From Sulfuricurvum sp. (GTDB lineage Bacteria > Campylobacterota > Campylobacteria > Campylobacterales > Sulfurimonadaceae): 64,000 nt of DNA. The number at the start of each line of letters is the position of its first letter. The first letter of the stretch is position 1. Shown here in pieces: positions 10,689-58,742 of the stretch. The translations under genes and the position numbers were made by a program. Location of the stretch: the NCBI GenBank assembly GCA_020721585.1, contig DYMK01000007.1, positions 1 to 64,000 on the forward strand, written 5' to 3'. The notes under the pieces were generated by a model, which was given only the letters and a program-made list of their open reading frames with translations, was not told where the DNA came from and did not search any database.

Positions 10689-12056
10689 ATGCGACGGCTG
10701 TTGTGGTTTCGGCGTGATCTGCGCATGGAGGACAATCCTCTTTTAGCACACGCAGGGGAGGTATTGCCACTGTTTATTTTTGATCCCCATCTCCTCTCAG
10801 CGCTTTCCCCCCATGATCGTCGCGTGAGCTTTATCTTTGAATCGCTGATCCACCTCAAAGCCCAATTGCACCACCACGGTTTGGATGTGGCACTTTTTTA
10901 CGGAAACCCCACTGACGTAGTGGCGTGGCTTTTGACCCAAGGCACTTTTGATGAGGTGGTAGCCTCCGGAGATTATGACCCCTATAGCATTCAACGCGAT
11001 ACCCACATCTCCCACCTTTTGCCTTTTAATGCCCTGCACGATACCTACCTTTTGGATCCAAACGAAGTCCTCAAAAAGGATGGAACCCCCTATTTGGTTT
11101 TTACCCCGTTTTATAATCAGGTGAAAAAAATCTTTTCCCCCGACCATATTGCCCCATCCTCCCCCTCCAAACAGACCCTGATCCCTTTTGACTATGGTGT
11201 CATTCATCAGATTCACGACACGCATGAGACCCTTTTGCCCCTTGCGTTGGCATCGATTGGATTTATCCCGCAAGCACTACCGCTTCTTTCTCTGCACGAA
11301 AAACTCAATCGTTTTAGGGAAAAAATAGCGCACTATTCGCACGATCGGGAGATTATGGCATTGGAAGCGACTTCGGATCTGGGTGTCGATTTACGGTTTG
11401 GACGTTTGAGTATTCGGGCGTTAATGCGCTGGTTGGTGGAGCGAAAAAAGGAAGGAATAGAGACCGAACCGTTTTTTCGTCAGCTGATCTTTCGAGAGTT
11501 TTATGCGATGCTTTTGTACCATTTTCCCCATTTGGTCGACACCAACTTTCGGTATAGCTTTAGGGGAATACCAAACGAAGCCTATTTTGAGGCGTTTTGT
11601 ACCGCCCAAACGGGGGTGCCGATGGTCGATGCGGGGATACGAGAGTTGCTTGCAAGCGGAGAGATGCACAACCGTGTCCGTATGATTTGTGCGTCGTTTT
11701 TTACCAAAAATTTGCTATTGCCATGGCAGTGGGGGGAGGCGTTTTTTGCCCGCCATCTCTTAGATTATGATACGGCAAGCAATGTATTATCGTGGCAATG
11801 GAGTGCGGGGACGGGGATTGATCCTCAACCCTATTTTCGGATTTTTAACCCCTATACCCAAACCGTGAAATTTGATAAAGAGGGACGCTACATCACACGC
11901 CATCTTCCGCAACTTACCCACGTTCCCCCTAAACTTTTTTCGGATGAAACGGCACTCACGCAGTATCGGTGGGGTGCGTATCCCCCGCCTATTGTCAATC
12001 ATAAAGAGAGTGCGCAAAAGGCGTTGGCGTATTATAAAACTTCGTTGTCGCAGTGA
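10689..12056 (+). CDS. phrB: Deoxyribodipyrimidine photolyase (class I CPD type)
   Basis: 455-residue flavoprotein that splits cyclobutane pyrimidine dimers with light. It starts LLWFRRDLRMEDNPLL (photolyase N-terminal alpha/beta domain for the antenna cofactor). The C-terminal FAD domain has FFRQLIFREFYAMLLYHFP, GVPMVDAGIRELLASGEMHNR, and WSAGTGIDPQPYFRIFNP, all typical of the FAD pocket. Length matches class I enzymes. It forms an operon with the YbgA-like gene. CPD rather than 6-4 specificity is inferred from overall type. Confidence 0.92.
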   Translation: MRRLLWFRRDLRMEDNPLLAHAGEVLPLFIFDPHLLSALSPHDRRVSFIFESLIHLKAQLHHHGLDVALFYGNPTDVVAWLLTQGTFDEVVASGDYDPYSIQRDTHISHLLPFNALHDTYLLDPNEVLKKDGTPYLVFTPFYNQVKKIFSPDHIAPSSPSKQTLIPFDYGVIHQIHDTHETLLPLALASIGFIPQALPLLSLHEKLNRFREKIAHYSHDREIMALEATSDLGVDLRFGRLSIRALMRWLVERKKEGIETEPFFRQLIFREFYAMLLYHFPHLVDTNFRYSFRGIPNEAYFEAFCTAQTGVPMVDAGIRELLASGEMHNRVRMICASFFTKNLLLPWQWGEAFFARHLLDYDTASNVLSWQWSAGTGIDPQPYFRIFNPYTQTVKFDKEGRYITRHLPQLTHVPPKLFSDETALTQYRWGAYPPPIVNHKESAQKALAYYKTSLSQ

Positions 12057-26610: not shown

Positions 26611-26689
26611 GGCGCTACCCCCTTCTCAAGCACTGTCACTTTTTTGGGGGGTGACTGTACTAAAACCACTACCTAAGGTATACAATAGC

Positions 26690-29600
26690 ATGACATTCAC
26701 TGAAAATGATATTCGCAACGCCGTTAAAGCCATTGATTTCATTAAAGGGAAAGAATATTTTGAGTACGGATATGTTGTTGACTGTGAGCCTAAGATTGAA
26801 AACGATACGTTATTGATCTTCTCTTCTGAAACACGAGGATCATCTCATAATTATTACCAGCAAAAAATTCAACTTCAAAAAACGATATTCGATACTTTCA
26901 AACTACATGGTCTTTGCAGTTGTCCTGTCGGATTAAACTGTAAGCACGTTGTTGCAGCGTGTTTAGCGTATACGTCGTTTAATGCAGTGGGGACAACAAG
27001 AGCTTTAAATCAATGGATCAACCGTTTCAAAGAGGCAGCTTCCCCTAAAAAAGAGTTTTTTCCTTCTTCCTCTGAACAACATATTATCCTTTATCGATTG
27101 TTTCATGATAGGCATCCTTACTCTCCAAGCGATGTTAGTTTTTACAAAACCAAGCGAGGGAAGCATGGGAAACTTAACAAAGGGAATCAAATTTCGATTC
27201 AAAGCTTTTTGTATAACGGAAATTTTGATGGTATTGTCAACGAAGAGGATTGGATCATTATAGGATTGTGCAAACTTCTTTACTCGCAAAGATTGGGAAA
27301 TATTCGTATCGAAGGGGAGGCGGGCTATAAACTTTTGAAAAAATTGGTTGAGACGCAACGGTGCTTTTTGGATGCAAATACGGAGCCTTTAAGTTTTTCT
27401 TCCGAACCATACGAATTAACGTTTCAATGGATTGCGCACGACATCGATCATTCAATGCTATGTTCCAATTTGACTCCCTATCAAGCCATTGTGCCAACGA
27501 TTCCCAAAGTGATGCTTGATGAGACAGCGAATATCCTCTACGAGATGACCACACAGCTGAATCAAAATAGCTTAGCATTGTTACTAAAAGCACCCGTACT
27601 CCAAAACGACCAGCTGATCAACGTGTATGAATCCCTGTATACGTTAGCACCCATCCCAGTCCCGATAGGCTATAGCATTGAAACGCTTCATGTCGCTCCC
27701 ATTCCGCATATCACCTTACAAAAAAACAGTGAAACCAAGGAATATAAAATCCATTTGACGATGAAGTATGAAGAATTTCAGTGCGAATGCTCTTCCGATG
27801 CAGATCGACATTATGTGAGTAAACAGGAGAAACGCATTGAAATTATTCGGGATAAAAAAGGGGAAAATGAGGCGATTAAAACGCTGAATCATTGTGGATT
27901 TATCCGTGAAATCATCAATAATCAACTTTATTTTTTCACCAAAAATTCTTTGAACACACAAACAGCGTTACAAGTATGGAACGATTTTCTCACCCTTCAT
28001 CGTCAAATTCTGGAAGATAACGGGTGGATTATTGTAATTGAAGAGGATTTTACCCTTCGTTTTGACGTTGCAGAATCCATCAGTGCAGAAAGTGAAGCGA
28101 TTAATGCGTGGTTTAGTCTCTCTTTTGATTTGGAATTTGATGGCGTATCCCGTCCTCTCGTACCCTTGTTGGCATCTATTATTAGCCAATATGATCATTA
28201 CCATACACTCCCCCCTAAACTGAATGTGGAGATTAAAGAAAACCATTATGTGAGTATTGATACTATCGAGATGGAACCCATTTTAAAGACAATTTTTGAA
28301 CTCTTTGACCAACGTGATGAAGAGGGCAATCTTAAAATTGGAGCGTATGAATCCCACTTGATCTATGATCTGGATGAGAATGTAGCATGGAAAGGGTCAC
28401 GTGAACTTCTCACACTGGGTGAAAAACTCAAAAATTTTGAGACCATCGAACGTGCCACTCCCCCCCAAGCATTAACGGCTACCCTAAGAGAGTATCAGCA
28501 GGAGGGACTTGATTGGCTTGGGTTCTTGCACGAATTTCGATTTGGCGGTATTTTAGCCGATGATATGGGGTTGGGGAAAACAATCCAGACTCTATCACAC
28601 CTCTCACTGCTTAAAGAAACGGGAAAACTTACTCTCCCCTCGCTTATTATTATGCCAACCTCGCTCATCGCTAACTGGCGTAACGAAACACACCGTTTTA
28701 CCCCCAATCTCTCAGTCTTAATACTGCATGGTTCCCAACGGATGGATGTGTACGAAAAGATCGATGAATATGACATCGTCCTCACTACCTATCCTCTTAT
28801 TGTGCGTGATGTGGACGTATTAGAGAAAAGACAGTTTGACTATATCATTCTTGATGAAGCTCAAAAAATCAAAAACCCTAAAACGAAGATGGCACAAGCC
28901 ATTAAAACGTTACACGCTCATCATCGTTTAGCCCTTAGTGGTACTCCGATTGAAAATCATTTGGGAGAATTGTGGTCGATTTTTTCGTTTTTAATGCCTG
29001 GATTTTTGGGAAATATGAGCTTCTTCAGAGAAGCCTACCAAAATCCCATCGAAAAAGAACGTGACATACATGTACAAGAGCGGTTGAATCGTCGTATCAA
29101 GCCTTTTTTACTGCGTCGTACAAAAGAATCTGTGGTCTTAGAGCTTCCTCCCAAAACGGAAATTATCAAATATACTCAGTTTGAACCCAAGCAAGCCAAA
29201 CTTTATGAGACCATTAGGGTTACTATGGAGAAAAAAGTACAAGACGCGATACGCTCTAAGGGGATTGGAAGTTCTCACATTACGATCCTTGATGCCCTCC
29301 TTAAGCTACGTCAAGTATGTTGTGACCCCTTGCTCCTCTCACTTGATGAAGCCAAAAAAGTTAAAGAATCCGCCAAACTGGAATTGTTGATGGATTTGCT
29401 CGAAGAGCTACTCTCTGAAGGGCGTAAAATTCTTATTTTTTCGCAATTTACTTCAATGCTCTCTATTATCGAAGCCAAACTCAATGGAGAGAAAATACCC
29501 TACACTAAACTCACCGGTCAGACACGCAAACGCGAAGAAGCGATTAAAGCGTTTACCGATGGGGAAGCAGAAATTTTTCTGATCAGTCTCAAAGCTGGAG

Positions 29601-29878
29601 GGGTAGGTCTAAACCTTACCCAAGCCGATACCGTTATCCATTATGATCCATGGTGGAATCCAGCTGTAGAAAATCAAGCGACTGATAGAGCGTATCGCAT
29701 TGGTCAAGATAAGCCAGTATTTGTTTATAAACTCATCGTTGAAAATTCGATTGAGCAGAAGATTTTAGAACTTCAAACTAAAAAACAACGTATTCAAAAC
29801 ACCATTTATGAGGGTGAAGAGAACGATAAAGAGAACGTATTTAAAGGAGAAGAACTTTTAAATCTTCTTAAAAGTTAA
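26690..29878 (+). CDS. SWIM zinc-finger SNF2-family helicase (copy 1)
   Basis: 1062 residues from ATG 26690, which has AAGGT upstream. A GTG at 26651 adds 13 weak residues. It opens with a SWIM finger (CSCPVGLNCKH), followed by a long middle region without a recognised domain, then the SNF2 motor: Walker A ILADDMGLGKTIQT, DEAQ box IILDEAQKIKNPKT, SGTPIENHLGELWSIF, and helicase C motifs LKAGGVGLNLTQADTVIHYD and DRAYRIGQDKPVF. It is a DNA-translocating ATPase of bacterial HepA/RapA-like type, function unknown. A diverged paralogue lies at 51022. Confidence 0.92.
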   Translation: MTFTENDIRNAVKAIDFIKGKEYFEYGYVVDCEPKIENDTLLIFSSETRGSSHNYYQQKIQLQKTIFDTFKLHGLCSCPVGLNCKHVVAACLAYTSFNAVGTTRALNQWINRFKEAASPKKEFFPSSSEQHIILYRLFHDRHPYSPSDVSFYKTKRGKHGKLNKGNQISIQSFLYNGNFDGIVNEEDWIIIGLCKLLYSQRLGNIRIEGEAGYKLLKKLVETQRCFLDANTEPLSFSSEPYELTFQWIAHDIDHSMLCSNLTPYQAIVPTIPKVMLDETANILYEMTTQLNQNSLALLLKAPVLQNDQLINVYESLYTLAPIPVPIGYSIETLHVAPIPHITLQKNSETKEYKIHLTMKYEEFQCECSSDADRHYVSKQEKRIEIIRDKKGENEAIKTLNHCGFIREIINNQLYFFTKNSLNTQTALQVWNDFLTLHRQILEDNGWIIVIEEDFTLRFDVAESISAESEAINAWFSLSFDLEFDGVSRPLVPLLASIISQYDHYHTLPPKLNVEIKENHYVSIDTIEMEPILKTIFELFDQRDEEGNLKIGAYESHLIYDLDENVAWKGSRELLTLGEKLKNFETIERATPPQALTATLREYQQEGLDWLGFLHEFRFGGILADDMGLGKTIQTLSHLSLLKETGKLTLPSLIIMPTSLIANWRNETHRFTPNLSVLILHGSQRMDVYEKIDEYDIVLTTYPLIVRDVDVLEKRQFDYIILDEAQKIKNPKTKMAQAIKTLHAHHRLALSGTPIENHLGELWSIFSFLMPGFLGNMSFFREAYQNPIEKERDIHVQERLNRRIKPFLLRRTKESVVLELPPKTEIIKYTQFEPKQAKLYETIRVTMEKKVQDAIRSKGIGSSHITILDALLKLRQVCCDPLLLSLDEAKKVKESAKLELLMDLLEELLSEGRKILIFSQFTSMLSIIEAKLNGEKIPYTKLTGQTRKREEAIKAFTDGEAEIFLISLKAGGVGLNLTQADTVIHYDPWWNPAVENQATDRAYRIGQDKPVFVYKLIVENSIEQKILELQTKKQRIQNTIYEGEENDKENVFKGEELLNLLKS

Positions 29879-49787: not shown

Positions 49788-50981
49788 ATGAATTTTACAC
49801 CACTCTTGCCTACCGATAATGGGGGGAATATTGATAAAAAATTACTCTCAATGGCTGAAAAATTGTGTATTGAAAGTGCGACCTTATGTGGTGTATATGC
49901 CCCCCAAATACTGCAAGGCATTCAAGAGTTATTGCGAAAAGTGAATAGTTATTATTCCAATCAAATCGAATCTGAGGGTACCCATCCCATCGACATTGAC
50001 AAAGCGACACGCCAAGAATTTTCAACCAATACCAAAGAGAGACAACTTCAACAACTCTCTTTGGTGCATATAGAGGTTCAAAAATACCTTGAAGCCTATT
50101 GTCATAATGGGGAAAAAAATCCTTTTGATAGAAATTTTATTAGAGAAGTTCATCGTGTTTTATATGCGCATCCTGATATGCGCTATTTTTTACAGATCAA
50201 AGAGGAAGGGAAAATGTTGGAGATGATCCCCGGTGAATTACGCAAAGCGAATGTGCAAGTGGGAAACCATATCGCCCCTGAGTATACGCAACTTGCGAGT
50301 TTGTTTGATATGTATGAGTTGAATTACAAACTGCCCTCTTATGCAACCCAAGCTACCAAGGTTATTTACGCCTTTGCATCTCACCACCGGCTTACATGGA
50401 TCCATCCTTTTTTGGATGGAAATGGAAGAACCGCACGATTGGTTTTGGATGGAATAATGACCAGTATACAATTACAAGGGTATGGATTATGGAATATTTC
50501 ACGTGGTCTTTCACGTCGTTCAGATGACTATAAGAAGTACTTAGCCATGGCGGATATGCCACGTCAAGGGGATTTGGATGGTCGAGGGTCATTATCGACC
50601 AAAGCATTGATTTTGTATGTGCAGTTTATGTTAGAGATTGCCTTGGATCAAGTAGAATTTATGAAAAAGAACCTCAAAATGGAGGGGTTACATGAGCGAA
50701 TTGAGGGGTATGTCCGTCTCTCTAAAGAGGGATTGTTGGGAATTCCCCCCCTTCCTAAATACAGTGAAGCCCTTTTTAAAGCGTTATTGATGGTGGGCGA
50801 AGTTTCACGAGGTAAGGTTATGGCTATAATACATACCAAAGAACGAACGGCAACCTCTTTGATCAAAGAGTTGATCCAACGCGATTTTTTAGAATCAGAC
50901 ACCCCTAAAAGTGCCATTCGTTTGAAGTTTAATGCCCATTTTGCTTCGTATATTTTTCCTGATTTGATCCCGCAAAAATAA
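49788..50981 (+). CDS. Fic domain protein (AMPylase-type)
   Basis: 397 residues. The Fic motif HPFLDGNGRTAR is intact near residue 204, with the catalytic histidine. The N-terminal helix carries an inhibition-like SNQIES segment (YYSNQIESEGTHPIDIDKA): the consensus is S/T-x-x-x-E-G/N, so the last position is changed to S. The C-terminal part (about 290-395) looks like a winged-helix region with a DNA- or protein-binding role. Fic enzymes transfer AMP to target proteins. It is 41 bp before the SNF2 gene on the same strand. Confidence 0.88.
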   Translation: MNFTPLLPTDNGGNIDKKLLSMAEKLCIESATLCGVYAPQILQGIQELLRKVNSYYSNQIESEGTHPIDIDKATRQEFSTNTKERQLQQLSLVHIEVQKYLEAYCHNGEKNPFDRNFIREVHRVLYAHPDMRYFLQIKEEGKMLEMIPGELRKANVQVGNHIAPEYTQLASLFDMYELNYKLPSYATQATKVIYAFASHHRLTWIHPFLDGNGRTARLVLDGIMTSIQLQGYGLWNISRGLSRRSDDYKKYLAMADMPRQGDLDGRGSLSTKALILYVQFMLEIALDQVEFMKKNLKMEGLHERIEGYVRLSKEGLLGIPPLPKYSEALFKALLMVGEVSRGKVMAIIHTKERTATSLIKELIQRDFLESDTPKSAIRLKFNAHFASYIFPDLIPQK

Positions 50982-51021: not shown

Positions 51022-54000
51022 ATGGCAAAAGTAAAACAACACTACGGACTCACCCCATGGGGGAAAGCATTTTATGAACGTTTGGTTGCAGTCTATGATG
51101 ATGAGGGGCGATTGACGCGGGGAAAAACCTATTTTACTAAAGGGTCTGTCCAATCGTTGAATCTTCAAGGATCGATGATTCATGCCAAAGTCAAAGGGAG
51201 TGGCGGATCGGTTTATCGGGTTTCTGTTGCGTTTGAACCTTTTGATGCAGCAACCCAACCACGGTTGATTGAACGGATCAAAGGGGATGCTTTGCTCCAA
51301 TCGGCGTTGTTAAATGGTACCCTCCCTGAGACGTTAATTCAGTGGTGTGAATCAGAAAAGATTGATCTTTTTACGACTACGACGCAGCAGGATAATGAGA
51401 CCGATTCGTTGTGCAGTTGTCCCGATTACGAAAACCCGTGCAAACATATTTTTGCGGTGTTGTTGGCATTAAGTACCGAAATAGACCATAATCCGTTGCT
51501 CCTTTTTTCGCTTCACGGGCTTGATCTGAGCGTTGAATTGGAAAGCTTAGGGGGAAATGAGATTCCCCCTCCCATCGTATTTGTCCCATGGGAAAGTACG
51601 ACGTGCGAGCAGCCACTGGAAATTCTCCACCATGAAAATGCATTTTTGCTTATTGATTCGCTTCTTTTGGAAAACCCCTCCTTTGCCCCCATTGATTATA
51701 AAGCGGTGATGCGGGAGTTTTACAAAGCCCATACCAAAAGTTTACCCCACATTATCGCTCCCATCGTCACCGAAGAGAAAGAGCAGTTGGAACGTTTTTT
51801 CAAAGATGCCCGATGTGAATGCAAGCTCGATGAGGTGTGGCAAAATGGTTCGATACGCATCTCCCATCCCCTATTGAAGCAACAGCCCCACATTCTCCAG
51901 CTCCTTGCCCCTTATATGACCAAACAGACCCAAGAGGGGTGTCTTGTCTCCGTACTTAGTTTTGTGACGTTGTTTCTCTCGTTTCACAGCGATGAGGGGG
52001 ATGGTGCGGCGTATCGCTATTATCACGCGTTGAGTCAAACCCTCTATCTTTTGTTACACGCCAATGCGTTTATCCCTACGGTGGTCAAAGACCACGAACG
52101 CCCCCGCTTTTTTATCGGATGGATCCCCCTTTTGACCCCCGCTTCGGTACGCGAACAGATTCAACGCTTGGCGTGTTATGCTACCCCTTTTGTCCGTTTG
52201 GGGAATCATGAAGCCTTTGCCAATGGATACAGTGGGACATTATTATTTTTGTCCAAAGCGATGGGAGAGTATGTTTATGAGATGAATTTTATGCATAAAC
52301 GGCTCTTTATGAATCCCCCTCCCATTAGTCAAAGCTTCTTTCAAGGGAGACCTTTTGTCCAAAAGGAGGGGGGAAAAAGCCATACTGACCGTGCGGTCTA
52401 TAACTATTTTTCGGTGTTTTCCCTTGCGTTAAATCCCTATCCCCTCACGTTGACACTGGATAAAGGGGAAGAGGATCACGCATACGGGATTGCGTTGAGG
52501 GTGCATGATGACCAAACCCAAACAACGCATTATTTATGCGATGCCCTTAAACAAGGGAAATTTCAAGGGCTACTTAAACTGCTTGCCCTGTTGCGCAATT
52601 TTTTAGCTGAAATAGAGTTGCTAACCCTTCATCCACGGGTTTTACTGGAGGGGGAACGGTTTGAGACGTTTATCAAAGAGAGTTCCCCTCTGTTAAGTTC
52701 TTTGGGAATTAGTGTTATTTTGCCCCGTGAATTGCGCCATCTGCTAAAACCCCGTTTGGCGATGCGGGTGCGTGCCAAAAAAAGTCCCACCAACTTTTTG
52801 ACACTGGATAAAGTACTCGAATACGATTGGACGATTGCCATTGGGGATACCCATATTACCCTTGAGGAGTTTCAATCGTTGGTCGAACACCAAAGCGAAT
52901 TGGTACTGTTTCGGGATTCGTACATTAGCATCTCCCCCGAAGAACTCAAAGCGTTGTTCGCTCGCGCCAAGAAAACCCCCAAACTAAGCCGTTTTGACCT
53001 AATACGGGGAAAATTTGAGGGAAATGTTCTTTTGGATACGGAGTTAGAAGATTTTTTTGACACGCTCTTTCGCCTCCAAAATCTCCCCATCTCCCCTAAC
53101 CTCAAAGCGACCTTACGCCCCTACCAAATACGGGGAGTGCAATGGTGCATCTCCAATCTTTTGAGTGGATTTGGGATTATTTTAGCCGATGATATGGGAT
53201 TGGGAAAAACCATTCAGACCATTGCGACGCTGTTGTATCTTTACGAGCAAGGGGAGGTCAAAGGGGAGACATTGATCGTCGTCCCTACCTCCTTGCTCCC
53301 CAACTGGGAGAATGAATTGGGCAAATTTGCCCCTTCATTGAGCGTGGAACTGTATTATGGCATTGGGCGTATCCTTGGTAACGCGCAGATTATTTTGACC
53401 ACTTACGATATTTTTAGACGGGATGAAAAACTTTTTTCATCGAAAAAAATTGAGATATTGGTCATTGATGAGGCGCAACGGATTAAGAATCCCACCACCC
53501 AAGCTGCCATGGCACTCAAAGGGTTTAAGAGCAAATTCCGTATTGCCCTAAGCGGTACCCCAGTGGAAAATTCGCTCACCGAATTGTGGAGTATTTTTGA
53601 TTTTGCTTTGCCTGAGTACCTCAAAGACCTTGGCAGTTTTGTCACCTCCTACGTCCGACCCATCGAGATGGATCACGATCATACCGTCGCGAAAAACCTC
53701 AAAGCACTCACCGCCCCCTTTATGCTCCGTCGTCTCAAAACCGATAAAACCATTATCGATGATCTTCCCGACAAAATTGTGGTCGATGAGTACGCGACCC
53801 TCTTACCTGACCAAGCAGCGTTGTACCAAAGTGTCGTAGAGGGTGCGATGAAACAATTAGACCACGCAAGCGAATCCAAAAACCGTGCAGGGTTGATTTT
53901 TAAACTGATTACGGAACTGAAACAAATCTGTAATCACCCCCGAAATTACGATAAAACCTCCCCCACCGATTCGGCATTGAGCGGAAAAAGTGAATTGCTC

Positions 54001-54498
54001 TTAACCCTCCTTGAACCCATTTTAGCCCGTGGAGAAAAGGTGCTTATCTTTACTCAGTATGTGGAAATGTTAGCCATTTTGACCCAGATTATTGAGACCA
54101 AATTTTTGATCGAACCCCTCACCTTTGAGGGGTCTATGGCGACCAAAGCACGCGAATCGGTGGTGGATGCGTTCCAGAATGATCCTAAAAAATCGATTTT
54201 GATCCTCTCTCTTAAAGCCGGAGGGGTGGGGCTTAATCTCACCCAAGCTGCCAATGTTATCCACTACGATTTATGGTTTAACCCCGCAGTGGAGAATCAA
54301 GCGACCGATAGAGCGTTTCGGATTGGGCAAAAAAATAATGTCTTTGTCTACCGTTTTATCACCAAAAACAGTTTTGAAGAGAAAATTGATGCGATGATTA
54401 AAGCCAAAACGGCAATGGGGGAGATGAGTGTGAGTGTCGGAGAGACTGCATTGGCATCGTTAAGTAATGAGGAACTTCACCATCTTTTTACCCGCTAA
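51022..54498 (+). CDS. SWIM zinc-finger SNF2-family helicase (copy 2)
   Basis: 1158 residues. SWIM finger CSCPDYENPCKH at about 131-142, then a long unassigned middle, then the SNF2 motor: ILADDMGLGKTIQTIATL, LVIDEAQRIKNPTTQ, SGTPVENSLTELWSIFDF, LKAGGVGLNLTQAANVIHYD and DRAFRIGQKNNVFVYRF. It likely moves along DNA. The C-terminal TKNSFEEKIDAMIKAKTAMG is coded again at 57112-57258 (see there), so this gene may be a recombinant at its 3' end. It is downstream of fic and diverged from the copy at 26690. Confidence 0.92.
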   Translation: MAKVKQHYGLTPWGKAFYERLVAVYDDEGRLTRGKTYFTKGSVQSLNLQGSMIHAKVKGSGGSVYRVSVAFEPFDAATQPRLIERIKGDALLQSALLNGTLPETLIQWCESEKIDLFTTTTQQDNETDSLCSCPDYENPCKHIFAVLLALSTEIDHNPLLLFSLHGLDLSVELESLGGNEIPPPIVFVPWESTTCEQPLEILHHENAFLLIDSLLLENPSFAPIDYKAVMREFYKAHTKSLPHIIAPIVTEEKEQLERFFKDARCECKLDEVWQNGSIRISHPLLKQQPHILQLLAPYMTKQTQEGCLVSVLSFVTLFLSFHSDEGDGAAYRYYHALSQTLYLLLHANAFIPTVVKDHERPRFFIGWIPLLTPASVREQIQRLACYATPFVRLGNHEAFANGYSGTLLFLSKAMGEYVYEMNFMHKRLFMNPPPISQSFFQGRPFVQKEGGKSHTDRAVYNYFSVFSLALNPYPLTLTLDKGEEDHAYGIALRVHDDQTQTTHYLCDALKQGKFQGLLKLLALLRNFLAEIELLTLHPRVLLEGERFETFIKESSPLLSSLGISVILPRELRHLLKPRLAMRVRAKKSPTNFLTLDKVLEYDWTIAIGDTHITLEEFQSLVEHQSELVLFRDSYISISPEELKALFARAKKTPKLSRFDLIRGKFEGNVLLDTELEDFFDTLFRLQNLPISPNLKATLRPYQIRGVQWCISNLLSGFGIILADDMGLGKTIQTIATLLYLYEQGEVKGETLIVVPTSLLPNWENELGKFAPSLSVELYYGIGRILGNAQIILTTYDIFRRDEKLFSSKKIEILVIDEAQRIKNPTTQAAMALKGFKSKFRIALSGTPVENSLTELWSIFDFALPEYLKDLGSFVTSYVRPIEMDHDHTVAKNLKALTAPFMLRRLKTDKTIIDDLPDKIVVDEYATLLPDQAALYQSVVEGAMKQLDHASESKNRAGLIFKLITELKQICNHPRNYDKTSPTDSALSGKSELLLTLLEPILARGEKVLIFTQYVEMLAILTQIIETKFLIEPLTFEGSMATKARESVVDAFQNDPKKSILILSLKAGGVGLNLTQAANVIHYDLWFNPAVENQATDRAFRIGQKNNVFVYRFITKNSFEEKIDAMIKAKTAMGEMSVSVGETALASLSNEELHHLFTR

Positions 54499-54559
54499 GG
54501 GGCAATTTTGGGTAGTATATGGATCATATATGACCCAAAGGAGAAGCATTAAGGGGCGT

Positions 54560-54588
54560 TTGGCTTCGTTGCCCTATCTTTGTATAAT
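54560..54588 (+). promoter_or_regulatory. Promoter of the lipoprotein gene
   Basis: TTGGCT (54560-54565), 17-bp spacer, TATAAT (54583-54588), 28 bp before the start. AAGGAG ribosome-binding site at 54605-54610. Confidence 0.55.
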
Positions 54589-54616
54589 TGCCCCAATGTT
54601 ATATAAGGAGTCGATG

Positions 54617-55186
54617 ATGAAACAAGGGTATCTTTTGGCCTTGGTGACCATGATGGTCATGACAGGGTGTGCGTACAAAAATGAGGCGATTGAACTCTCT
54701 TCGTACAAGGGGCAATATGTGGGGAGAACGACACAGGATAAAACCCCTATCGCCCTTATCTCTGTCACCGATGTGCGACCTAATCCGATGTATGTGGGGT
54801 ATGTCGTTTCTGATAATGTCGCCACGGCGAAGCTGTACAGTTATGTCAATTTTGCTGATCGGTATAAAGAGGCCCTCAATCGGGCGTTGCAAGCGGCCCG
54901 TTTTACGATGGTTCAAAAGCCAAGCGATACCACGACCCTGCTAACCGTCGCGATCAAAGAGATTCACCTTACCTACAATGACACCAAAAAATTGGATGAA
55001 AATCTCCATGGAAAAGTGGTCGTGGAAGTAACGGTGAAAAAAGGGGAAAAAAGCCTCATCCGAACCTTCACCCAAGAGCAGGGGAAATGGATCAAACCCT
55101 CCTACACGTCCAAAGACATCGAACCGTTTTTAGATACCCTCTTTGTCGACAATATCAACCAAATTGTTACCAAATTGGCGGAATAG
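54617..55186 (+). CDS. YajG-like lipoprotein
   Basis: 189 residues from ATG 54617, best spaced from AAGGAG (54605-54610); 54614 is also possible. Longer readings run back into the SNF2 gene. Signal sequence YLLALVTMMVMTGC with lipobox ending at Cys 16, so it is lipid-anchored. The mature part, with ALISVTDVRPNPMYVGYV and a C-terminal DTLFVDNINQIVTKLAE, resembles YajG/LPP20-type outer-membrane lipoproteins of unknown role. It has its own promoter and lies inside the duplicated SNF2 tail interval. Confidence 0.7.
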   Translation: MKQGYLLALVTMMVMTGCAYKNEAIELSSYKGQYVGRTTQDKTPIALISVTDVRPNPMYVGYVVSDNVATAKLYSYVNFADRYKEALNRALQAARFTMVQKPSDTTTLLTVAIKEIHLTYNDTKKLDENLHGKVVVEVTVKKGEKSLIRTFTQEQGKWIKPSYTSKDIEPFLDTLFVDNINQIVTKLAE

Positions 55187-55195
55187 TTAGGGTAG

Positions 55196-55375
55196 CTATC
55201 TGTCCCTTTTTTTCCTTTTTTCCTTGAGACGGTCAATCAGATCGCGTGTTGTTTGAAGATTGTACACCGCCTTGGCAATAAACGCTCTGGCAATCTCCTT
55301 ACGGTGCTTCGGAGGATTGGTGATTTTTACTTCTGAAACGTAAAGCTCTATTTGTGCAAGCTCAAGAATTCGCAT
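55196..55375 (-). CDS. Small basic helical ORF, unknown
   Basis: 59 residues on the minus strand from ATG 55375. The open frame continues upstream for about 20 codons (…FPSASRREEKL) without a start, so it may be a truncated 3' part of a longer gene. It contains TNPPKHRKEIARAF and LIDRLKEKRKKRDR, all helix-forming. The stop overlaps GTAGCTATCTGTCCC, which recurs inverted near 57.09 kb. Family not recognised. It could be a fragment of a transposase-associated or cargo gene. Confidence 0.4.
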   Translation of the reverse strand: MRILELAQIELYVSEVKITNPPKHRKEIARAFIAKAVYNLQTTRDLIDRLKEKRKKRDR

Positions 55376-55642
55376 CAGCTTCTCTTCTCTTCTTGAAGCA
55401 CTGGGAAAAGAGTTACGTTGAAATTTAAGATTTTAAGCCACATTTTTGAAAGAGAGGGTACACTTTTTGTCATAGAGTTTCTTGTGTCTTGGTTGTTTTT
55501 TGTTGTAAAGAAATTTTACCTAAAACATCAAGAAACTCGGCTTTAATGAGCTTTTTTTTAAACTTCCAATAGCCTTAAATTAGAGGATGGATTTGGAGAT
55601 TTGAAAGAGGCTCGATATTATTGATTTATTAAAAGGAAAAAT

Positions 55643-56989
55643 ATGTCACGTTATATGCTATCAGACGCAGTAAATTTAGAAATCTATAACAAATTTTTAG
55701 AGTTTAAGAAGGTTTTTTTTGAAGATGGTGTGTCAATATTTAATAAAAACCTAAAATTATTTGATAATGATGAAGTTTTTCAAGAATATGAAGACAGAAT
55801 AATTAAGAATTATGATGATTCTAAACGCCCAAATCTCGTCAAATATATAGAACAATTATCATCCGCTAACGAAAAAGTAAGACATTTTTTTGCGAATTTA
55901 ATATGGCTATATAACTATCCAATATATGATAAAAAAAATGAAACAAAGATAAAGACAATTGAAATTTATTTAGACAAATATTATGATGAAACTAGCGTAA
56001 AAGAGTCTTTACCAAAACATGGAATAGCTTCATATGGACGTTTATCACAGTATTTATACTTTGATATTAATTTTATATATTTTTTCACGAAAGAATATAT
56101 AAGACAAAAAAACAATCCAAATGAAATAATCAATAGTATCAATTTATACGATTCGATGAAAAAAATCTCTACAGAACATTTCAAAGAGATGAATCATTTG
56201 GCATCAAAGCATATGTTAAATTATTTGTTTGATCCTGATTATTATGAACCAATTGTTAATACATCATGTAAAAGAAAAATCGTTGAGACTTATTATGATG
56301 AATATAACGATCAGACGCTTGATAATGATATCTACAAAATACGCAAAGAAACTTTTGGTTTTGAAAACAGCATTTATGGTGAAATCTGTGGTACACATGC
56401 TATATATAAGAGAGCTAATGGGGATCAAATTACAAAAAAAAGAGCTCAGGTTTCAGAAGTTGGAAGTATTGGGTCAAAAACCGATTTCGATTTAGATCTT
56501 AATCAGAAAACATATGAAGATGATATTTTAGCTGATGTGAAGAAGAAAATAGAAAATGGTATGCGAGCTGAAGAGTTAGTCTATGAAATAATAAAGCACA
56601 ATGTCGATAGAAAAATTTTGATCAATAAAATTAGCCAAATATACAAAATTAAAGCATTTGATGTTTTAACGGAAAACATAGAAAAAGTCATTCATTATTC
56701 TAAAAATTATGATCGGTATGCGCCATTTGATTTAATTTCAACTCATAATGATGACATCTTGTATATTGAAGTTAAAAGTACTACTGGAAATACTATTTAC
56801 TTTTCAAAGGCTGAAATTAAATTTGCATATGATCATTTAGAAAATTATGAGGTCGTTATTGTAAAGGGCAATACAATATATGAAATAGATATCTATGACA
56901 CAATAATAGATGTTTATAGCATAATGATTAATAATGAAGTAAATTGGTCATATGAGACTATTAGTTTTAAAATAGATTTTTTTGAATAA
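55643..56989 (+). CDS. DUF3883-domain protein (predicted restriction-like, accessory)
   Basis: 448 residues, with base and codon use far more AT-rich than all neighbours. The N-terminal 300 residues have no recognised domain. The C-terminal part has the DUF3883 pattern: GMRAEELVYEIIKHN, then HYSKNYDRYAPFDLIS, DILYIEVKSTTGN (E-x-K of a PD-(D/E)XK-type core) and a helix FSKAEIKFAYDHLENYEVVIV. DUF3883 often appears fused or next to helicases in phage-defence islands. AGGAAAAAT precedes the ATG. No partner gene adjoins it except the SNF2 helicase upstream. Confidence 0.75.
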   Translation: MSRYMLSDAVNLEIYNKFLEFKKVFFEDGVSIFNKNLKLFDNDEVFQEYEDRIIKNYDDSKRPNLVKYIEQLSSANEKVRHFFANLIWLYNYPIYDKKNETKIKTIEIYLDKYYDETSVKESLPKHGIASYGRLSQYLYFDINFIYFFTKEYIRQKNNPNEIINSINLYDSMKKISTEHFKEMNHLASKHMLNYLFDPDYYEPIVNTSCKRKIVETYYDEYNDQTLDNDIYKIRKETFGFENSIYGEICGTHAIYKRANGDQITKKRAQVSEVGSIGSKTDFDLDLNQKTYEDDILADVKKKIENGMRAEELVYEIIKHNVDRKILINKISQIYKIKAFDVLTENIEKVIHYSKNYDRYAPFDLISTHNDDILYIEVKSTTGNTIYFSKAEIKFAYDHLENYEVVIVKGNTIYEIDIYDTIIDVYSIMINNEVNWSYETISFKIDFFE

Positions 56990-57062
56990 AAAAATATGTA
57001 TTTATTTACTTAAGATAGTGCTCCGTAATATTTGCACGATTATGTTTCATCTCCCAGCTTAC

Positions 57063-57110
57063 AGCCTGTAAGAAAACAAGAAAAGGGGACAGGCTACTTT
57101 TCCCCCTTTT
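57063..57110. terminator. Hairpin with crossing alternative stems downstream of the DUF3883 gene
   Basis: AAAAGGGG (57081-57088) pairs with CCCCTTTT (57103-57110), followed by T-rich sequence: terminator-like. AGCCTGT (57063-57069) pairs with ACAGGCT (57089-57095), crossing the first stem. It also resembles the inverted partner of the motif at 55192-55210. Confidence 0.45.
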
Positions 57111-57111
57111 T

Positions 57112-57258
57112 CGTTTTATCACAAAAAACAGTTTTGAAGAGAAAATTGATGCGATGATTAAAGCCAAAACGGCAATGGGGGAGATGAGTGTGAGTGTCGG
57201 AGAGACTGCCTTAGCTTCGCTCAATAACGACGAACTCAAAGCCCTTTTTGTGCGATAG
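57112..57258 (+). pseudogene. Duplicated 3' end of the SNF2 helicase gene
   Basis: Codons for RFITKNSFEEKIDAMIKAKT, MGEMSVSVGETALASL, NNDELKALFVR then stop, matching the last 48 codons of the helicase at 51022. Bases 57124-57209 are identical to 54364-54449 (86 bp, offset 2760 bp); a single mismatch lies just upstream. After that the copies diverge in DNA but keep the protein pattern (HLFTR versus ALFVR). No start is attached. It looks like the original 3' end left behind after an exchange or insertion of the preceding 2.7 kb. Confidence 0.9.
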
Positions 57259-57317: not shown

Positions 57318-58742
57318 ATGCGTATTGTATTAACAGGCGCGAATGGGTATATTGGTCGGCGGTTAAAACATCACCTCTTACGCAACAAAGAGCATACCCT
57401 TCGTCTCATGGTGCGTAATCCCAACAGTCTCTCCCCTTGGGTAATTGGGGAGTGCGAAGTTGTCCAAGCCGATGTGATGCACCCTCAAACCCTTGATGCG
57501 GCGTTAGCGGGGGTGGATATTGCCTATTATCTTATTCATGGTTTAGCCCATTCCAATTTCAAAGAACTTGATCGTCAAAGTGCCCAAAACTTTTTGGAGG
57601 GGTGTATCCGCCAAAAAGTTTCCACGATTATCTATTTGGGCGGGTTGGGGGACAAAACCACCGGCAGTGAGCATCTCCTCAGTCGCATCGAAACGGGGGA
57701 AATCCTTAGCTCACGTCCCGATAAAGTGCGGTGTTTGTGGTTTCGTGCGGGGGTTATTATCGGCTCGGGGAGCGCGAGTTTTGAGATTATGCGCCATCTC
57801 ATCCAAAAGCTTCCGGTCATGATCACCCCCAAATGGGTCACAACGCATATAACCCCCATTGGGGTGGAGGATGTCTTGCGCTATTTGGTGGAGGGATTGA
57901 CTCTTGACCTTTCCCACAATACCATCATTGATATAGGGGAAGAGGTGATGAGCTATGGGGAACTTATGGAGCGGGTTTCGGTGGCGATGGGACTTAAACG
58001 CTATTTTATCCCTGTGAATTTTTTTAGCCCCAAATTTTCATCGTATTGGTTGGTGCTGTTTACCCCTGTCCCGTTTTCCATCGCACGCTCGTTGATTGAG
58101 GGGTTAAAAAGTGATGCCACCATCCAAAATAATCTTCGTCACACCCTTTTTTCGTTTCCCCTCCACTCCCTTGAAGCAGCAGTCCATACCGCTGAAGCGG
58201 AGATTGAGACCAATCAGGTGTTAAGCCGTTGGAGTGATAGCGGGGGGATTGAGGGAGAAGTCGATCATGACCACGATTTGTCCAATGCGTTGTTTATCGA
58301 TCGTCGCAGTATCCCCCTTCATGGAGCTTCTCCCGCACAGGTGTACCGAACGTTTTGCGCCATCGGGGGAGACAATGGGTGGTTTGGGTACGATGGATTG
58401 TGGAAACTTCGTGGGTTGATTGATAAACTCTTTCACGGAGTGGGGATCAATCGGGGGCGACGCGATGGAGCAGAGGTGCGCATCGGAGACAGCGTCGATT
58501 TTTGGAAAGTGGTCGATGTGGTGGAAAATGAACGGTTGTTGCTTTTTGCTCAGATGAAACTACCGGGAAAAGCGTGGTTAGAATTCAAGCTTCATGAGGG
58601 ACACTTAATCCAAAGTGCCTACTTTTACCCTTATGGGGTGTTGGGAAGACTCTATTGGTATGCGTTGGTTCCCCTTCACGCCCTTATCTTTACGACGATG
58701 GCAAAGACGATTGTGACGCGCGCGTTAGCGCACGACGCTTAA
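57318..58742 (+). CDS. NAD(P)-binding SDR/epimerase-like protein with C-terminal DUF2867
   Basis: 474 residues from ATG 57318 (best spaced from AAGGAG at 57306-57311; GTG 57312 and ATG 57315 are alternatives). Rossmann motif RIVLTGANGYIGRRLK at the start, IIYLGGLGDKTTGSEHLLSR for the catalytic region, then a DUF2867 domain from about 310 (PAQVYRTFCAIGGDNGWFGY, WLEFKLHEGHLIQSAYFYP) and a C-terminal hydrophobic helix. The same two-domain build is found in many proteobacteria, with unknown substrate. It converges on the rhodanese gene with an 18-bp overlap. Confidence 0.88.
   Translation: MRIVLTGANGYIGRRLKHHLLRNKEHTLRLMVRNPNSLSPWVIGECEVVQADVMHPQTLDAALAGVDIAYYLIHGLAHSNFKELDRQSAQNFLEGCIRQKVSTIIYLGGLGDKTTGSEHLLSRIETGEILSSRPDKVRCLWFRAGVIIGSGSASFEIMRHLIQKLPVMITPKWVTTHITPIGVEDVLRYLVEGLTLDLSHNTIIDIGEEVMSYGELMERVSVAMGLKRYFIPVNFFSPKFSSYWLVLFTPVPFSIARSLIEGLKSDATIQNNLRHTLFSFPLHSLEAAVHTAEAEIETNQVLSRWSDSGGIEGEVDHDHDLSNALFIDRRSIPLHGASPAQVYRTFCAIGGDNGWFGYDGLWKLRGLIDKLFHGVGINRGRRDGAEVRIGDSVDFWKVVDVVENERLLLFAQMKLPGKAWLEFKLHEGHLIQSAYFYPYGVLGRLYWYALVPLHALIFTTMAKTIVTRALAHDA

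Follow-up and report, generated by a model that had tools for sequence, protein, structure and literature searches.

The 3′ end of an SNF2-family helicase gene is duplicated in the 64-kb stretch of Sulfuricurvum DNA analysed here (hereafter the window), with a sharp boundary between near-identity and divergence, two family-type tails, a truncated tyrosine recombinase gene, and a REP-like sequence at the right-hand junction. We favour a homologous crossover combined with a non-homologous junction over integrase-mediated insertion, deletion of a paralogue or assembly error, and consider it somewhat probable that the locus is a recombination scar formed by a homologous crossover at one end and a second, non-homologous junction at the other. 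The window lies within an 88-kb contig (C90) of a 2.29-Mb genome (99.9% complete, 112 contigs), which was compared with 40 other Sulfuricurvum genomes, all distant (about 69% protein identity).

The duplicated helicase 3′ end

The helicase gene, the two copies of its end and the right-hand flanking gene are arranged as follows.

51022-54498, plus strand: SNF2-family helicase gene, 1158 aa, with SWIM zinc finger, DUF3670, SNF2-rel and Helicase_C; bears tail A
54352-54498, plus strand: repeat copy A, the last 49 helicase codons; divergent tail A at 54450-54498, ending ...SNEELHHLFTR*
57112-57258, plus strand: repeat copy B, an orphan helicase 3′ end; tail B at 57210-57258, ending ...NNDELKALFVR*
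57318-58742, plus strand: NAD-dependent epimerase/DUF2867 gene, the right flank, conserved in the genus

A single direct-repeat family is present between positions 50000 and 60000 (54352-54489 and 57112-57249; 138 nt, 89% identity, spacing 2760). The full repeat is 147 nt long and contains 20 mismatches; sequence outside it matches at chance level (25/100 upstream and 30/100). Copy B begins 2.76 kb downstream of copy A and is an orphan, lacking the helicase gene body, as the preliminary description had reported. The mismatches are distributed very unevenly, with one in the first 98 bases (at 54363) and 19 in the last 49 (Fisher p = 8e-10). Between these lies a block of 86 bp free of any mismatch (54364-54449 and 57124-57209), beyond which the DNA diverges and the protein pattern is kept, again in agreement with the earlier account. 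Fourteen codons differ between the copies, nine of them silently (including the stop codons, TAA and TAG) and five non-silently.

No other exact direct repeat in the 64-kb window is as long as the 86-bp block; the runner-up measures 21 bp. The same 86 positions in congeneric helicases match at only 67-69, so protein conservation alone is insufficient to produce an identity of 86/86, which at congener-level similarity has an expectation of 0.79^86, or about 2e-9. Chance and protein conservation are ruled out by these values as sources of the identical block.

Both tails fit the C-terminal pattern of about 75 relatives. The sequence KALFVR is common to tail B and all six aligned congeneric helicases, where tail A has HHLFTR instead, and over the last 49 bases the number of positions that agree with the congeners is 27-30 for tail B and 22-25 for tail A. 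This greater similarity of tail B, over a segment of 49 bases, weakly suggests that the gene originally ended in tail B and that tail A was acquired. The helicase itself has remained complete, and expression of the orphan tail B is improbable. Homologues of the helicase occur in 7 of the 40 congeners, with 66-70% amino acid identity for full or near-full copies, and always carry a single tail wherever the 3′ end is present in the sequence. The nearest relatives come from Sulfuricurvum MAGs or a Campylobacterales MAG.

Two further elements were observed in the window. A near-perfect 33-bp palindrome, TTTGGGTAGTATATGGATCATATATGACCCAAA, is located at 54507-54539, just past the helicase stop codon, and is a candidate operator or terminator; because it occurs only once in the genome, a role as a recurring recombination site is ruled out. 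Another SNF2 helicase (1075 aa, 26651-29878), 21 kb from the first, gives strong matches to DpdE profiles (E about 1e-240).

The composite interval and its right-hand junction

The following elements lie between the two copies of the helicase end.

54617-55186, plus strand: lipoprotein gene (Lipoprotein_16, Pfam match), 46.5% GC, which is genome-like; sole copy in the genome
55194-55420, minus strand: truncated ORF remnant, an open frame, which we take to be four-helix-bundle-like, without an HMM match
55421-55613, plus strand: dispersed repeat unit of about 193 bp
55643-56989, plus strand: DUF3883/NOV_C protein gene, 448 aa, 26% GC (Pfam match, NOV_C E = 8e-7)
57007-57070, minus strand: tyrosine recombinase C-terminal remnant, 21 codons, LQAVSWEMKHNRANITEHYLK*, its body missing on the tail B side
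57071-57111, plus strand: REP-like sequence with a GGGGACAGGCTAC core, between the integrase remnant and tail B

Homologues of the lipoprotein (52-59% identity) are chromosomal and occur in eight other Sulfuricurvum genomes. Congener copies of the dispersed unit, at L217:3583-3770, L218:3099-3293, L219:3228-3427, L220:3151-3332 and L221:1563-1756, are 73-88% identical, and the left part of a match in congener G063 reaches into the 55194-55420 ORF remnant. The unit ends 20-64 nt upstream of the start codons of unrelated ORFs, always in the same orientation; the downstream genes encode DUF3883, PAS chemoreceptor-like, GAF-type and 835-aa proteins, among others. Its 3′ half is predicted to fold into a conserved hairpin of 66 nt, with which the unit terminates. 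The unit is possibly a mobile promoter, a leader RNA or a MITE; the interval gave no match above chance to a known RNA family.

The DUF3883 protein contains a D..EVK motif (DLIS...YIEVKSTTG) and gives weak matches to Hjc. Recognised by reading, this motif supplies the conserved D and E-x-K that characterize the PD-(D/E)XK class, and these features point to a PD-(D/E)XK nuclease; the gene is likely to be defence cargo. No relatives were found in the 40 congeners, plasmids or viral contigs. Because the lipoprotein gene has genome-like GC content and chromosomal homologues, and the DUF3883 gene has 26% GC and is unique in the genus, the interval is a composite of at least three pieces: a chromosome-like lipoprotein segment at 54499-55186, the dispersed repeat and what is best read as truncated AT-rich defence cargo. 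The lipoprotein gene and the AT-rich DUF3883 gene noted in the preliminary description are real ORFs with Pfam matches, and its treatment of the interval as one insert gives way to this mosaic.

The same description saw no integrase, a point corrected by the 21-codon remnant on the minus strand, which shares 95% amino acid identity with the intact protein P0002. Intact relatives are about 306 aa long and occur in congeners and once elsewhere in the source genome (C7:25335-26249); in all, 15 of 41 Sulfuricurvum genomes contain this tyrosine recombinase. The family is divergent, with weak or no Pfam matches and weak HMM matches to integrase/XerA/XerC. The intact relatives contain the R ... HxxR ... 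catalytic Y signature, identified by reading as a GGxRLEG-type box, H[AG][FL]R and MKH[NR]RxxI[ST]EHYL. No relatives were found in viral contigs, and those on plasmids are distant (the best, from Aliarcobacter faecis, at 50%).

In the integrase loci L257-L266, the neighbours include BREX, type I restriction, PDC-M62 and HipA-like genes, and small upstream genes are conserved. The intact integrase is convergent to BrxL and PglZ in L264 and to a type I restriction R-like gene in L266; the C7 copy adjoins a PDC-M62-like pair and a HipA-like gene. In the window, the end of the DUF3883 gene is 17 bp from the stop codon of the remnant, and the two are convergent as in the congeners. Since this layout is the same as that at the congener defence genes, the AT-rich part is best read as truncated defence cargo.

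Because homology to the integrase extends only to 57070 and homology to the helicase begins again at 57112, the right-hand junction is a second, non-homologous one. The 41-bp gap between the remnant and tail B holds the REP-like sequence, the core of which, GGGGACAGGCTAC, is present in six exact copies in the genome, whereas the reversed pattern is absent. One of these copies lies beside the end of an ORF finishing ..GRPKKE*, an arrangement that we take to resemble that of REP-associated transposases. REP-like repeats with a GGGGACAGGCTACTTTT core are found across the genus, and one pair in the source genome is inverted, its members about 60 bp apart. No helicase microhomology was seen at 57101-57112.

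Origin of the locus

The abrupt passage from near-identity (1/98) to divergence (19/49) within homologous sequence, in one frame and with a congener-like tail B, supports well a crossover between two divergent helicase alleles. The preliminary description had proposed such an event, between a resident and an incoming helicase within the conserved block, and that part of its model is supported. A single crossover does not suffice, because the REP-like sequence joined to a truncated integrase at the right-hand junction calls for a second, non-homologous junction or a deletion.

In the reading that we prefer, the resident helicase gene would have had one of the two tails, probably tail B, with the epimerase gene downstream of it. 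The incoming DNA would have carried a divergent helicase allele with tail A, the lipoprotein gene and defence-type cargo (the DUF3883 nuclease and the integrase). RecA-type homologous recombination within 54364-54449 would then have joined the resident body to the donor tail and produced a complete helicase. The other end could have been made by direct non-homologous joining to the resident helicase at a point 12 bp upstream of the block (homology-facilitated illegitimate recombination, HFIR), or by single-crossover integration of a circle and a later deletion with one end within the integrase and the other within the second helicase copy; the REP-like sequence would mark this non-homologous junction. 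We infer the identity of the resident tail, the order of events, the recombination pathway and the timing from the arrangement of the sequence.

A helicase tail joined directly to the epimerase gene, which the preliminary description had suggested looking for in related genomes, was found in none of the 40 distant congeners, and a search next to the epimerase in 20 congener and related loci showed no helicase there. The donor arrangement, with helicase and lipoprotein genes as neighbours, was likewise absent from the loci read. Neither an empty site nor a donor was therefore found, among relatives only about 69% identical, and at that distance the comparison is uninformative rather than negative.

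Two congener pairs retain the sequence to the left of the helicase gene but show breakpoints near the same gene end. L081 and L082 are 95% identical over 11.7 kb and lose synteny 231 bp past the helicase stop codon (at 11729), and L080 and L078, with 87% identity across efp and the helicase, part at the final codons of the helicase (11476/4317). Because the genus is rearranged in general, the two breaks are only a hint that the helicase 3′ end is rearrangement-prone.

Among the alternatives, an origin from ancient paralogues is unlikely. Two full helicase genes, one with tail A next to the lipoprotein gene and one with tail B next to the epimerase gene, would have been reduced by a deletion that began in the integrase and reached into the second gene; the joint would be where the REP-like sequence now lies, and gene conversion would have kept the block identical. 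Both tails are indeed full family-type ends, and one deletion would remove the body of the second gene together with that of the integrase. However, no other fragment of a second helicase copy is left in the source genome, none of the 40 congeners has two copies of this helicase, and a separate conversion event is required for the identity of 86/86.

Site-specific integration is quite unlikely. Here a tyrosine-recombinase island would have inserted at the helicase 3′ end, supplying tail A as a replacement and displacing tail B, with the 86-bp blocks as attL and attR, and would since have decayed. The layout fits such an event: an intact gene with a foreign tail lies on one side and a native-type tail is left as an orphan on the opposite side, 41 bp away from an integrase remnant. 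However, 86 bp is long for a crossover core, and the neighbour of tail A is a lipoprotein gene of genome-like GC content rather than mobile-element DNA. In none of the ten loci with an intact integrase is that gene bracketed by direct repeats longer than 20 bp within about 10 kb on either side, and none contains helicase-like sequence. The congener integrases, moreover, have island genes on both sides and are not positioned at an island edge. The 64-kb window also contains no tRNA that could provide an attachment site.

An assembly effect, in which the 86-98 bp repeat was misjoined (e.g. by merging the variants of two strains or by linear insertion of an excised circle), is very unlikely: the block is short enough to mislead a k-mer assembler, the assembly consists of 112 contigs, and a circle plus an empty site would yield the same k-mer graph, but the left junction of tail B, with its REP-like sequence and integrase remnant, is unlike a simple chimera of two helicase genes, and both copies are well inside the 88-kb contig.

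On the preferred reading of a crossover with a non-homologous junction, the locus is most simply a recombination scar of an ordinary kind, informative in its composite structure and a trace of the shuffling of defence cargo. It shows a chromosomal gene end taking up foreign sequence, including a likely anti-phage nuclease, with the host gene left complete, and the cargo is linked with a recombinase that is a marker of defence islands throughout the genus. A bolder reading, to which we give little credence, is that the conserved 3′ end of the helicase is a recurrent docking point, at which defence cargo bearing an alternative tail recombines, leaves the gene unbroken and can excise between the 86-bp repeats; the synteny breaks in the two other congener pairs would then be earlier rounds of docking. 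A gene end targeted repeatedly in this manner would represent a scarless docking site of a new kind, at which the data only hint.

Comparison with known systems

The element e14 and phage 21 integrate in the 3′ end of E. coli icd, supplying a replacement tail and displacing the original one. The helicase locus resembles icd in having an intact gene with one tail, an orphan alternative at the far end and a tyrosine recombinase trace beside it. It differs in its 86-bp identical block, in the chromosome-like lipoprotein gene inside the interval and in the lack of an intact integrase, and we know of no use of a helicase 3′ end as a target by this integrase family.

Another parallel in layout is provided by the tyrosine-recombinase-marked defence islands of Sulfuricurvum (BREX, type I restriction), where the integrase stop codon is likewise a few bases from a convergent defence gene. 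In the window, by contrast, the integrase is reduced to 21 codons and the genes 5′ of it are gone.

Recombination that is homologous at one end and illegitimate at the other gives related products, with target duplications making up the majority in conjugation tests with E. coli (PMC3240628). HFIR junctions usually have 3-10 bp of microhomology and a target deletion (PMC3240628). That the right-hand junction showed no helicase microhomology is a point against this reading. The helicase locus shares with such HFIR and single-crossover products the combination of one homologous and one non-homologous junction, and in both cases the insert may be flanked by a duplicated portion of the target gene (PMC3240628). 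It differs from them as a natural event in which divergent alleles are joined and a REP-like sequence is positioned at the joint.
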